From Candidatus Zipacnadia bacterium (GTDB lineage: Bacteria; Armatimonadota; UBA5377; JALGUK01), in the NCBI GenBank assembly GCA_029820875.1, contig JALGUK010000078.1, positions 1-14,135 on the forward strand: a stretch of 14,135 bases of DNA, written 5' to 3'. Within the stretch, counting starts at the first letter, position 1. Every line of letters begins with the position of its first letter. This document shows positions 6,325 to 9,402 of the stretch, one piece after another. Position numbers and translations under genes: made by a program. Under the pieces are notes generated by a model, which saw only the letters and a program-made list of their open reading frames with translations, searched no databases and was not told the DNA's origin.

Positions 6325-6945
6325 TCATTGTTGCTTCAACTCTTCAATCAACGCTGGGACAACGTCAAAGAGGTCCGCGACAATGCCGTAGGTAGCGACG
6401 TTGAAAATCGGCGCAGCGGGGTCCTTGTTTATGGCTACGATTGTATCGGACGTCTGCATCCCGGCCAGGTGTTGGATTGCGCCTGAGATACCGCAGGCAA
6501 TGTAGAGTTTCGGCTGCACCGTACGGCCTGTCTGTCCGACCTGATGGTAAGCCGGAATCCAACCAGCGTCTACGGTCGCACGCGACGCCCCGACAGCACC
6601 TCCGAGGACATGGGCCAGCTCCCGAATCAAGTCGAAGTTTTCGGCCTTACCGAGTCCTCGGCCTCCGGAGACGATGATTTCCGCTTCGGCTAAGTTGACT
6701 TCTTCATCTTTTTCGGAACGGAGGACTTCAATGATTTTGGTCAACGCCGCACGCTCTTGCAGATCGAATTCCTGCTTGATGATTTCCCCGGTGCGGTTTT
6801 CATCGCGCTCGGCTGCCTTCATGACCTTCGGTCGGACGGTGGCCATTTGGGGCCGAGCTTCCGCACAAATGATGGTTGCCATCAGGTTCCCGCCGAAGGC
6901 GGGCCGTGTCTGCAGGAGGCACCGCTGGTCGGGATCTATATCCAA
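6325..6945 (-). CDS. etfA: ETF alpha subunit, C-terminal part (second piece of split gene)
   Basis: This frame carries the C-terminal FAD-binding half of an electron transfer flavoprotein alpha subunit: TRPAFGGNLMATI and RPQMATVRPKVMK at the start, then SGGRGLG, GASRATVDAGW, HQVGQTGRTVQPKLYIACGISGAIQHL and AINKDPAAPIF, all FAD-contact motifs of the family. Family-like sequence begins before the nominal TTG at 6945: the same frame reads GLTADCTG just upstream. No ribosome binding site precedes that TTG, so independent translation is doubtful. The missing first half is in the piece at 6963-7424, in another frame. The last glycine of the usual DYGIVGDL reads Ala here (TYGIVADL). fabD follows after 55 bases. 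Confidence 0.8.
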   Translation of the reverse strand: MDIDPDQRCLLQTRPAFGGNLMATIICAEARPQMATVRPKVMKAAERDENRTGEIIKQEFDLQERAALTKIIEVLRSEKDEEVNLAEAEIIVSGGRGLGKAENFDLIRELAHVLGGAVGASRATVDAGWIPAYHQVGQTGRTVQPKLYIACGISGAIQHLAGMQTSDTIVAINKDPAAPIFNVATYGIVADLFDVVPALIEELKQQ

Positions 6946-6962
6946 GCCCGTGCAGTCGGCAG

Positions 6963-7424
6963 TCAGCCCAGACCCGTAAGGACGTTGGCATAAGGCATGG
7001 TCCGATATCGGGCCAGCACGGGATGGTCCACGACATAAACCTTGTCCGCGCCATACGCTACAACTTCTTCGGCGAGCTTGTCGGTTTCCTGCCCCATGAC
7101 GACTGCGCTCAACTCTACCCCGAGTTGGTCTGCCAGCCGTCGGCCCTCCCCCAAGAGCTCCATAGTCACCGTCCGCAGGTTCTCCCCATCATGCTCGGCG
7201 ACGACCCACACGCCCGAATACTGCGTGACATCCACCTCTCCCTTGCGGGGGACCACCATAACGATGGCGTTATTCTTGCATGGCGTCACGCATGCTCCGC
7301 AATTGGTGCACCGATCCTCGTCTACAACCGCCTTGTCATGCACCAATGTAAGTGCATCGTAGGGACAAACACGCACGCAGATGCCGCAGCCGTTACACTT
7401 GTCTTCAATGATTGTGATTGCCAT
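6963..7424 (-). CDS. etfA: Ferredoxin domain plus N-terminal part of ETF alpha
   Basis: Residues 1-60 form a two-cluster ferredoxin: CNGCGICVRVCP (Cys10, 13, 16, 20) and CTNCGACVTPC (Cys39, 42, 45, 49), enough for two [4Fe-4S] clusters. From about residue 72 (VWVVAEHDGENL) the sequence is the start of EtfA domain I, with LGEGRRLADQLGVELSAVVMG and the YGADKVYVVDHPVL stretch. The frame stops at residue 153, in mid-domain. The ATG at 7424 has GGAG at a 7-base spacing and lies 19 bases after etfB. EtfA proteins with such ferredoxin extensions occur in anaerobic butyryl-, caffeyl- and lactate-linked flavin bifurcating complexes. As read, this product could not bind FAD because that half is in the next frame. 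Confidence 0.85.
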   Translation of the reverse strand: MAITIIEDKCNGCGICVRVCPYDALTLVHDKAVVDEDRCTNCGACVTPCKNNAIVMVVPRKGEVDVTQYSGVWVVAEHDGENLRTVTMELLGEGRRLADQLGVELSAVVMGQETDKLAEEVVAYGADKVYVVDHPVLARYRTMPYANVLTGLG

Positions 7425-7443
7425 CGGATTGCTCCATCTTATT

Positions 7444-8235
7444 TCATTGCGGTTGGGGCAGGTTCAACTCGCGGATTCGCCTTGCCAATTCTCGCGCGGC
7501 TTCCCTCGGCTCGCCATCAATTATCATCGTCTCCCGCTCACGAACGGGTGTAAACGATCTAATGACCACCGTCGGCGAGCCTTCAAGGCCGATTTTAGTG
7601 AGGTCAGCGCCGATGGCCTCGGCGTCCCAATGCGGAATCTGCTTCTTCTTGGCTTTCAGAAGATTCCTCATGCTCGGGTATCGCGGCTCGTTAATCTGCT
7701 TGACGACAGTAATTAGAGCAGGCAGCCTCGCCTCGACGACCTCGAACTCGCCTTCGAGCAGACGCTTAACCTGGACCTTGCCGTTGTCAACTTGGATGCC
7801 GATTGCATACGTAATCTGGGGGATGCCGAGCTGTTCAGCCAACCCTGGCCCGACCTGGCCGGTGTCGCCGTCGAACGTCTGTTTCCCGCACAGTATCAAA
7901 TCGTACTCGCGGATTGTCTTGACGGCCTGCGCAAGCGTATAAGATGTTGCCCACGTGTCGGCGAGGGCCATGCGCCGGTCACAGAGCAATATCGCCTCAT
8001 CAGCCCCCATGCCCAGGCAGTGGCGAAGCGCGTCCTCAGCCTGAGGCGGCCCCATCGAGATACATGTGACCTTGCCGCCGTGTTTTTCCCGGAGCCGAAG
8101 CGCCTCCTCTACGGCGTTTTCATCAAAGGGGTTGATAATATTCTCAGCCGAACTGCGGTCAATGGAGTGCGTCTCAGGATTGATTCGCACTTCCGATGTG
8201 CTCGGAACTTGTTTGACACAGACGATAATGTTCAC
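7444..8235 (-). CDS. etfB: Electron transfer flavoprotein beta subunit
   Basis: EtfB pairs with EtfA to carry electrons between an acyl-CoA dehydrogenase and NADH, ferredoxin or quinone. The 263-residue protein opens MNIIVCVKQVPSTSEVRI and carries INPFDENAVEEALRL, SMGPPQAEDALR, GADEAILLCDRRMALADTWATS and GKQTFDGDTGQVGPGLAEQL, the nucleotide-binding blocks of the family. The INPxD, SMGPPQA and ADTWATS wording is closest, as I recall, to EtfB of anaerobic butyryl-CoA dehydrogenase and lactate dehydrogenase bifurcating complexes. The start is a GTG at 8235 with GGGAGG seven bases upstream. It begins 21 bases after the acyl-CoA dehydrogenase and ends 19 bases before the ferredoxin-etfA gene, so the three form one unit. 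Confidence 0.95.
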   Translation of the reverse strand: MNIIVCVKQVPSTSEVRINPETHSIDRSSAENIINPFDENAVEEALRLREKHGGKVTCISMGPPQAEDALRHCLGMGADEAILLCDRRMALADTWATSYTLAQAVKTIREYDLILCGKQTFDGDTGQVGPGLAEQLGIPQITYAIGIQVDNGKVQVKRLLEGEFEVVEARLPALITVVKQINEPRYPSMRNLLKAKKKQIPHWDAEAIGADLTKIGLEGSPTVVIRSFTPVRERETMIIDGEPREAARELARRIRELNLPQPQ

Positions 8236-8256
8236 GACAGGGCCTCCCGGGTAAAC

Positions 8257-9402
8257 TTACAAGTATTCCCTAAGCAGTAAACCCGCGATTACCCCGCGTT
8301 GTATCTCAGAGGTACCTTCAACGATCTCAAAGAGCTTGGCCTCGCGCATATAGCGCTCAACAGGATAGTCGCAGGTATAGCCGTATCCGCCTAACACCTG
8401 AACAGCCTTGGTGGTCACCTGCATCACCGTCTCGGCGCCGAACAGTTTCGCCATGGCGGCCTGTTTTTGGAAGGGTTTGCCGGCGTCTTTAAGCTGAGCC
8501 GCCTGCAGGCACAACAGCCGTGCCGCCTCGATTTGCGTGGCCATGTCGGCGAGCATAAACTGCACAGCCTGGAAGTTGGCGATGGATTGGCCGAACTGCA
8601 CGCGCTGTTTGGCGTACGGGACGGCGGCGTCCAGGGCCGCCTGTGCCAGCCCTACCGCACCTATGCCCATCCCTATCCGGCCGAGGTCGAGAGTTTCCAT
8701 CGCAACGCGGAATCCGCGCTTTTCTCTATGCAGCAGGTTCTCGGCGGGCACATGGCAGTCCTGGAAAATCAGCTCGCGGTTCGGAAGCGAGGGGAAGGCC
8801 ATTTTCTTCTCATTCTTCCCGAAGGAGAAGCCCTCGAAGCCCTTCTCGACTATAAACGCCGTCATCCCGCGTGCACCGCGGTCAGGGTCCATGTTGGCGA
8901 TGATGACATACGTCTGAGCCTCGCCGCCGTTGCTGATGAAGATTTTAGTGCCGTTGAGTATATACTCGTCGCCCTTCTTCTCCGCCCGGGTGCGGACGTT
9001 GCCTGCGTCCGAGCCTGCCTCCGGTTCCGTCAGGCCGAAGGCGCCGACGACCTCCCCTCTGGCTAGCGGTGGGAGGTACTTTTTCTTTTGCTCCTCGGTA
9101 CCGAAGAGCATAATGGGATAGACGCAGAGAATGTGCGCGCCGAAAACAGCACCGGTCGTCGTGCAGGCCCGCGAGAGCTCGGCACCTACCAGCGCCCACG
9201 TAACGAAGTCCATGCCCAGTCCACCGTACTCTTCCGGGACCGGGATGCCCATCAAATCAAGTTCGGCGCACTTCTTGATGTTTTCCCAGGGGAACTCGCC
9301 GGACTCATCGGTCTCCTTAGCCTTTGGGGCAAGCTCCTTCTGGGCGAATTCACGCACCGCTTCGAGAATCATTGCCTGGTCTTCGGTGGGGGAGAAGTCC
9401 AA
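8257..9402 (-). CDS. Acyl-CoA dehydrogenase family protein
   Basis: A full-length 381-residue acyl-CoA dehydrogenase (flavin-dependent oxidation of acyl-thioesters, or the reverse reduction of enoyl-thioesters when driven by ETF). Visible marks are GLTEPEAGSDAGNVRT and FISNGGEAQTYVII (FAD site), RVQFGQSIANFQAVQFMLADM, the QVLGGYGYTCDYPVERYMREAK block, and the catalytic base Glu362 in VEGTSEIQR (usually YEGT). The start is a TTG at 9402 giving the usual MDFSPTEDQ opening; AAGGGAG lies about 12 bases upstream, inside a 17-codon mini-ORF that stops three bases before it. It sits 124 bases after fabH and 21 before etfB. Its place within a fatty acid synthesis cluster suggests a role in the enoyl-reduction or acyl-recycling step, but substrate (CoA or ACP, chain length) cannot be read from sequence. 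Confidence 0.95.
   Translation of the reverse strand: MDFSPTEDQAMILEAVREFAQKELAPKAKETDESGEFPWENIKKCAELDLMGIPVPEEYGGLGMDFVTWALVGAELSRACTTTGAVFGAHILCVYPIMLFGTEEQKKKYLPPLARGEVVGAFGLTEPEAGSDAGNVRTRAEKKGDEYILNGTKIFISNGGEAQTYVIIANMDPDRGARGMTAFIVEKGFEGFSFGKNEKKMAFPSLPNRELIFQDCHVPAENLLHREKRGFRVAMETLDLGRIGMGIGAVGLAQAALDAAVPYAKQRVQFGQSIANFQAVQFMLADMATQIEAARLLCLQAAQLKDAGKPFQKQAAMAKLFGAETVMQVTTKAVQVLGGYGYTCDYPVERYMREAKLFEIVEGTSEIQRGVIAGLLLREYL

Follow-up and report, generated by a model that had tools for sequence, protein, structure and literature searches.

The 14,135-nucleotide stretch of contig JALGUK010000078.1 from Candidatus Zipacnadia bacterium (GCA_029820875.1), here called the window, holds a cluster of type II fatty acid synthesis (fab) genes. 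Between fabH and fabD lie genes for an acyl-CoA dehydrogenase (ACAD) and for both subunits of an electron transfer flavoprotein (Etf). In this lineage the ACAD-etfB-etfA unit probably serves type II fatty acid synthesis as its enoyl-thioester reductase; from sequence comparison we put the probability at roughly 0.7. The observations behind this reading are the gene content, the conserved position of the unit, the occurrence of FabK in the same slot in related genomes, the scarcity of standard enoyl reductases and the presence of FabZ. A reading made from the sequence alone had proposed an ACAD fed by an ETF and working reductively as a synthetic enoyl-thioester reductase, and the slot, the order kept in 37 of 43 genomes and the few standard reductases support it. 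The genes of the unit are:

8257..9402, minus strand: ACAD, the proposed catalytic subunit of the enoyl-thioester reductase (Pfam ACAD domains; best solved relative 4l1f)
7444..8235, minus strand: etfB, nearest to CarD (6fah_B, 231 bits; motifs DGDTGQVGP and SPT; NAD motif altered)
6963..7424, minus strand: etfA, 5' part, with two four-cysteine [4Fe-4S] motifs and the start of the ETF domain, ending in a premature stop (Pfam Fer4, ETF)
6325..6945, minus strand: etfA, 3' part, with the rest of the ETF domain and the FAD-binding domain, its frame shifted against the 5' part (PF00766, 133 bits)

Scans with Pfam and NCBIfam profiles gave the minus-strand order YceD/DUF177-rpmF-plsX-fabH-ACAD-etfB-etfA-fabD-fabG-acpP-fabF-rnc. 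This agrees with the order plsX-fabH-[ACAD-etfB-ferredoxin/etfA]-fabD-fabG-acpP-fabF that the sequence-only reading had described, every gene lying on the minus strand. As that reading had also stated, FabI, FabK, FabL and FabV are absent from the genes identified in the window, where FabG is the sole short-chain dehydrogenase/reductase (SDR). Both domains named in 'ferredoxin/etfA' were seen; more exactly, they belong to one fused gene, which in 33 of 40 rows from related genomes encodes 396-402 residues in a single frame.

Conservation of the unit was followed by scanning the window ACAD against species genomes, with the best 80 of 575 matches considered. Among these, the five best came from 'bacterium STF1_6', candidate division WS1, two 'Aerophobetes' and one Armatimonadota metagenome-assembled genome. 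Gene order is identical in the WS1 locus (L002) and the same in L004 up to the end of its contig; in L001, L003 and L005 the unit lies outside a fab cluster. The class of the L002 genome comprises 46 genomes, of which 43 carry an ACAD orthologue (E up to 1e-120). The loci of all 43 were surveyed (41 retrieved stretches plus L002 and L004), and the ACAD lies within the fab cluster in 37. Thirty of these show the complete series fabH-ACAD-etfB-etfA-fabD, six have fabH-ACAD on a contig that ends before fabD, and one contig starts at the ACAD and reaches fabD. The other six have the ACAD outside the cluster (G013, G015, G016 and G017) or are cut (G020 and G055). The distance between fabH and ACAD in the class has a median of 81.5 nucleotides, measured between tblastn ends. 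Three genomes gave no ACAD match. In G051 a contig edge carries etfB-etfA-fabD; in G040 and G043 FabD was not matched either. Since the arrangement is the same in 37 of the 43 ACAD-bearing genomes of a whole class, it is more than chance and is not accidental.

Some loci hold an additional gene between ACAD and etfB. A quinone methyltransferase gene (ubiE/menG) is found there in L126 (3234-3917) and, by eye, in L134, a possible link to menaquinone. L151 has a DUF4268 gene in this place (9680-10609), and a similar short open reading frame was seen by eye in L129.

The place between fabH and fabD is also occupied by a known enoyl reductase. The cluster plsX-fabH-FabK-fabD-fabG-acp-fabF is present in G007 (Armatimonadetes HOT.MB2.58; FabK 499 bits), G069, G082 and G095, so that the analogy drawn earlier with clusters carrying fabK between fabH and fabD is exact in four related armatimonads. 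FabK (enoyl-ACP reductase II; ACP, acyl carrier protein) is a flavoprotein. Unlike the ACAD-Etf unit, it belongs to an unrelated family, has a single subunit and uses no Etf. For a wider survey of the slot, 40 genomes were searched for FabD, 38 gave a match, and a stretch was inspected for each, together with L168. Both fabH and fabD were visible by eye in 28 loci, with FabK between them in four and nothing between them in 24. The empty-slot loci include the FabI genomes G066 and G129, and genomes with an ACAD elsewhere (G110, G091, G126, G149, G132, G013, G015, G016, G001 and G006); within this second group, FabI is present in G015 and G149, and a FabL-like protein in G016. An empty slot alone therefore does not equal FabI.

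Genome-wide searches for enoyl reductases were made in the genomes of the relatives; for the host organism the 14,135 nucleotides of the window were covered. FabI (264-274 bits) occurs in five of the 46 class genomes (G015 and G021-G024), four of them among the 37 with the ACAD in the cluster; the FabI of G015 adjoins, just upstream, an out-of-cluster ACAD. FabL-like scores (129-130 bits with the FabI model) were obtained only in G016 and G017, both with the ACAD outside the cluster. The G016 protein is FabL-like at 129.8 bits with the FabI model and 286 bits with NF005975 (cut-off 328), and that of G017 by score alone. Overlooked FabL enzymes were considered and rejected, as a protein similar to that of G016 would have shown at such a score. 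All other FabI-model matches in the class reach at most 77.2 bits. FabK above its cut-off is found in none of the 46 genomes; weaker FabK matches are present in G049 (172 bits; no NCBIfam model at 1e-50) and G023 (144 bits, by FabK score alone). FabV was likewise found in none of the 46, in a search whose control matched nowhere and which is thus unvalidated. Altogether 33 of the 37 in-cluster genomes have no FabI, FabL-like score or over-cut-off FabK, and either FabI or a FabL-like protein occurs in three of the four genomes whose ACAD lies outside it. FabZ above its cut-off is present in 44 of the 46. A standard enoyl-ACP reductase elsewhere in the genome, combined with a gene order not kept in relatives, would by the sequence-only reading have spoken against its proposal. 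The relatives do not show this: the order is kept in 37 of 43, FabI is present in 4 of 37 in-cluster genomes, and over-cut-off FabK and FabL-like scores are missing from them.

The window ACAD has 381 residues and matches PF00441, PF02770 and PF02771. It is not a member of FabI, FabK, FabL or FabV by sequence, and between fabH and fabD only ACAD, etfB and etfA are found. The catalytic glutamate noticed in the sequence-only reading is indeed present, in EIVEGTSEIQ. An ACAD with this residue and adjoining etfBA is a feature of the Bcd/CarCDE group. The best solved relatives are 4l1f of Acidaminococcus fermentans (433 bits) and Bcd of Clostridioides (5ol2, 430 bits), with CarC at 329 bits. The AlphaFold model (pLDDT 90) also has 4l1f and 5ol2 as its nearest folds. 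The top NCBIfam model is acryloyl-CoA reductase AcrC, with 463 bits, under its cut-off of 640.

EtfB matches CarD best (231 bits), followed by 4kpu, 5ol2, 7koe and LctB (194-218 bits); all five are Etfs of the bifurcating group, and the remaining five matches, canonical ETFs included, reach at most 122 bits. EtfA has a ferredoxin domain with two four-cysteine motifs; in L002, where the protein is intact, it can be aligned over 390 residues (433 bits) with CarE, its counterpart in caffeyl-CoA reductase. CarE with two clusters is described in PMC9232219, which also states that bifurcating Etfs carry DGDTAQVGP, for b-FAD. The window EtfB reads DGDTGQVGP, as does the 7koe chain, and was counted as carrying this motif. 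Among 36 EtfB rows of the class with the unit in the slot, DGDTxQVGP is found in 21 and DGDTxQV[GP]P in 34; the SPT motif is present in the window EtfB and in all 36. The NAD-site motif RXFXG is altered to RRMAL in the window, with Arg kept and Phe and Gly changed. It is exact in 15 of the 36 class rows, and its Arg is kept in 34. According to PMC9232219, RXFXG is part of the NAD site, and replacement of Arg, Phe and Gly by Ala left 8% of one activity and made the other unmeasurable; closely related non-bifurcating Etfs of Clostridium propionicum are also reported there. By sequence the window Etf groups with bifurcating Etfs, and a reductive use of it is likely. It was not classed as bifurcating by its features, and its working like one is hypothetical. 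In two in-cluster units, G018 (L158) and G019 (L152), the Etf is divergent and EtfA is without the ferredoxin domain. There the ACAD appears to have stayed in place and its electron carrier to have been swapped. The electron donor could differ among members of the lineage.

In the cycle proposed here, FabH and FabF would condense, FabG would reduce and FabZ, encoded elsewhere in the genomes of the relatives, would dehydrate. The ACAD would then take electrons from Etf and reduce the trans-2-enoyl group, most likely on ACP, to a saturated acyl group. In other bacteria FabI, FabK, FabL or FabV carries out this step. The donor may be NADH via the CarDE-like Etf, possibly with bifurcation to ferredoxin. 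From gene order and genome comparison we infer the direction of the reaction, ACP as the carrier, action on all chain lengths, the electron donor and the catalytic activity. Elongation may also reduce ferredoxin, because the Etf is nearest to the bifurcating CarDE; the NAD motif of the window is altered, so that bifurcation is only a possibility. That an electron-bifurcating enoyl-ACP reductase ends each elongation cycle, keeping as reduced ferredoxin the energy that FabI-type enzymes lose, is a tentative extension, on balance rather doubtful.

A break in etfA, which the sequence-only reading had suspected and held against its own proposal, is real in this sequence. At the junction two nucleotides stand in place of 31 codons of the relatives, so that the gene is a net 91 nucleotides short and its frame is shifted. 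The nearest homologues do not share it. The public homologues P0001 and P0002 have an intact EtfA of 396 residues, which the window lacks, and match the window parts at 340 of 365 and 339 of 365 residues (93% identity); the ACAD P0121 is 96% identical to that of the window. Among the 40 class rows, EtfA is full length in 33, cut by contig ends in four, out of frame in two (L148/G045, where the ACAD also has stops, and L153/G027) and shorter without the ferredoxin domain in one (L158). A broken EtfA as the rule of the lineage is ruled out by the two intact homologues and the 33 full-length rows. The frame faults of L148 and L153, both in draft genomes, may be sequencing errors. The break in the window may stem from a recent deletion or from an error of assembly; the latter is slightly favoured, since the gene should otherwise be essential.

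The ACAD family is best known from beta-oxidation, and the ACAD could be a catabolic or acyl-recycling dehydrogenase merely co-regulated with synthesis. The 3-hydroxyacyl-CoA dehydrogenase (3HCDH) domain, the only beta-oxidation marker searched, is present in 22 of the 46 class genomes, in keeping with such a role. Sixteen of the 37 in-cluster genomes lack it, and a catabolic role is unlikely in those for that reason. A first loose pass gave in G019 and G052 a single ACAD candidate per genome, the one in the cluster; moreover the slot is shared with FabK, and FabI is then mostly missing. This explanation is weakened by the 3HCDH counts and is held to be improbable. The same 16 genomes bear on another possibility, that ACAD-Etf supplies FabH with a starter, butyryl-CoA formed from crotonyl-CoA, and that a separate enzyme is the enoyl-ACP reductase. 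The unit does adjoin fabH, and its nearest solved relatives are butyryl-CoA dehydrogenases; yet these 16 lack the 3-hydroxyacyl dehydrogenase domain of the CoA type from which it would be fed, and neither FabI nor a FabL-like score nor FabK above its cut-off turned up in 33 of the 37 in-cluster genomes. Production of a starter is therefore given a slim chance.

An unrecognised enoyl reductase of the SDR type might do the main work, with ACAD-Etf as an accessory. The FabI model matches 2 to 15 proteins in each genome of the class (E up to 0.001), and four in-cluster genomes have a real FabI. The scores of the others do not exceed 77.2 bits, against 129-130 for FabL-like proteins and 264-274 for FabI, and in G035, G052 and G055 only two proteins match, one of which should be FabG; such an enzyme is hardly to be expected. 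An oxidative role of the unit, as an acyl-ACP dehydrogenase for unsaturated fatty acids in the manner of FabX of Helicobacter, would leave the enoyl reductase still missing. FabX is a flavoprotein of a family other than ACAD, with an oxidative/isomerising role; the Etf sequence, moreover, groups with the reductive CarCDE and Bcd Etfs. PMC8626469 describes FabX of Helicobacter pylori as a [4Fe-4S] dehydrogenase/isomerase in unsaturated fatty acid synthesis; its iron-sulfur cluster and its action on acyl-ACP in the type II pathway are points of likeness. Of all the explanations weighed, this appears the most remote.

Several points weigh against the unit as the enoyl reductase. The main biochemical worry is that the ACAD is nearest to short-chain (C4) enzymes, while a sole enoyl reductase must handle long chains. 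The absence of other enoyl reductases is read from the window itself and from the genomes of relatives, largely draft assemblies of uncertain completeness. Four in-cluster genomes have FabI as well. FabV was sought in an unvalidated search, and SDR-type enoyl reductases unlike FabI and FabL may be present. Nothing lies between fabH and fabD in 24 of the 28 loci where both are visible, including genomes carrying the ACAD elsewhere. The window etfA is broken, and two of the 40 class rows are out of frame too.

The pattern across the phylum and the trees adds evidence on both sides. In a sample of 251 genomes, scored with up to 10 first-pass candidates per genome for FabI/FabL-type proteins (E up to 1e-30), up to 8 for FabK, and ACAD at E up to 1e-120, 49 have the ACAD, 160 have FabI/FabL-type matches and nine have both (G015-G017, G021-G024, G078 and G149). 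Where one is present the other tends to be absent (Fisher odds ratio 0.076, p 4e-13, uncorrected for descent). It weakens the case that this p value ignores shared descent, most ACAD genomes belonging to one class. FabK above its cut-off is present in three of the 251, none of them with FabI or ACAD. A further contrary observation is that 48 of the 251 have no ACAD orthologue, FabI/FabL-type match or over-cut-off FabK, from which it follows that the phylum holds either unknown enoyl reductases or incomplete genomes; a more distant ACAD, at 46-52% identity, is present in some of these 48.

A tree of five fab proteins was built with FastTree and midpoint-rooted from 59 of 78 rows, 19 having been dropped with fewer than four of the five genes; it holds one genome twice, as L037 and L204. 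The window is sister to the class genomes with the unit in the slot, in one clade with support 0.98, and G013 is the only nested genome without the unit there. The ACAD tree (60 of 62 rows, without the partial sequences L160 and L180) groups the window with P0121/P0122 and then with the out-of-cluster copies of G016/G017. It thus leaves the window outside the in-slot clade of the class, which also counts against the proposal. A single origin of the arrangement is favoured by the fab tree and disagrees with the ACAD tree; the arrangement may therefore be old with later moves, or it may have arisen twice.

Among known systems, CarCDE of Acetobacterium woodii (PDB 6fah) also combines an ACAD with EtfB and an EtfA bearing an N-terminal two-[4Fe-4S] domain. 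An enoyl thioester is reduced there, as is proposed here, and CarD is the best match of the window EtfB. The window unit differs in lying in a fatty acid synthesis cluster, and its ACAD scores higher with butyryl-CoA dehydrogenases (433 bits) than with CarC (329 bits). Bcd-EtfAB of Acidaminococcus fermentans and Clostridioides difficile (4l1f, 5ol2) has the nearest ACAD by sequence and fold and shares the b-FAD motif DGDTxQVGP in EtfB. The alignment of its solved EtfA chain with the ferredoxin-fused EtfA starts only at residue 71 of the latter; the chain is therefore without the ferredoxin domain. Bcd-EtfAB is fermentative and acts on a CoA-bound C4 substrate. ACADs acting on carrier proteins (MbtN and prolyl-carrier dehydrogenases; 4irn) suggest that the fold can take such substrates; these enzymes are oxidative and belong to natural-product pathways.

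Among the matches listed from the open-licence literature, no title or abstract opening describes an ACAD/Etf acting as enoyl-ACP reductase of type II synthesis. The terms 'acyl-CoA dehydrogenase', 'flavoprotein' and 'ferredoxin' are absent from the main text of a 2022 review of bacterial enoyl reductases (PMC9260719), as are 'fatty acid' and 'acyl-CoA' from the text of an Armatimonadota paper (PMC10290634). Complex and pathway are each known; their union at the enoyl reduction step looks new. If the proposal is true, an ACAD-family enoyl-ACP reductase with a separate electron carrier joins FabI, FabK, FabL and FabV, which would explain how type II synthesis is completed in bacteria where those four enzymes are not found. 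Should the Etf bifurcate, membrane-lipid synthesis would be tied to energy conservation and would feed the low-potential electron pool. The annotation 'butyryl-CoA dehydrogenase' in uncultured bacteria need not signal butyrate metabolism or beta-oxidation.

The same replacement of the enoyl reductase may have taken place in other phyla. Separately, an ACAD with nearby etfB and ferredoxin-EtfA was observed in L076, L080, L031 (Omnitrophota) and L037, and ACAD, etfB and ferredoxin-EtfA in the genomes of L001, L003 and L005, in all of them with no match to E. coli FabI above 60 bits. The ACAD and etf genes of L037 follow rnc, directly downstream of the fab cluster. FabK-family matches under the cut-off were recorded in G001 (239 bits) and G010 (L076; 184 bits).

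The remaining genes of the conserved cluster in the window are:

11851..12378, minus strand: YceD/DUF177, upstream end of the cluster (Pfam PF02620, 100 bits)
11606..11854, minus strand: rpmF, ribosomal protein L32 (Pfam PF01783)
10532..11569, minus strand: plsX (TIGR00182, 367 bits, above cut-off)
9527..10519, minus strand: fabH (TIGR00747, 411 bits, above cut-off)
5295..6269, minus strand: fabD (TIGR00128, 353 bits, above cut-off)
4447..5229, minus strand: fabG, 3-oxoacyl-ACP reductase (TIGR01830, 334 bits, above cut-off)
4158..4394, minus strand: acpP (PF00550)
2897..4198, minus strand: fabF, the start of its reading frame probably set too far upstream, with an overlap with acpP (TIGR03150, 619 bits, above cut-off)
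1969..2700, minus strand: rnc, downstream end of the conserved cluster (TIGR02191, 256 bits, above cut-off)

Three further genes flank the cluster. An AAA-type ATPase of at least 490 residues (12664-14133, plus strand) is divergent from the fab cluster and open at the window end. At the other side, an open reading frame of 439 residues (3-1319, minus strand), also open, has a weak GH42-like match (PF02449, 34 bits). Next to it lies a prepilin-like protein with an N-terminal methylation motif (1316-1957, minus strand); similar stretches recur in armatimonad loci, six of them in L165.

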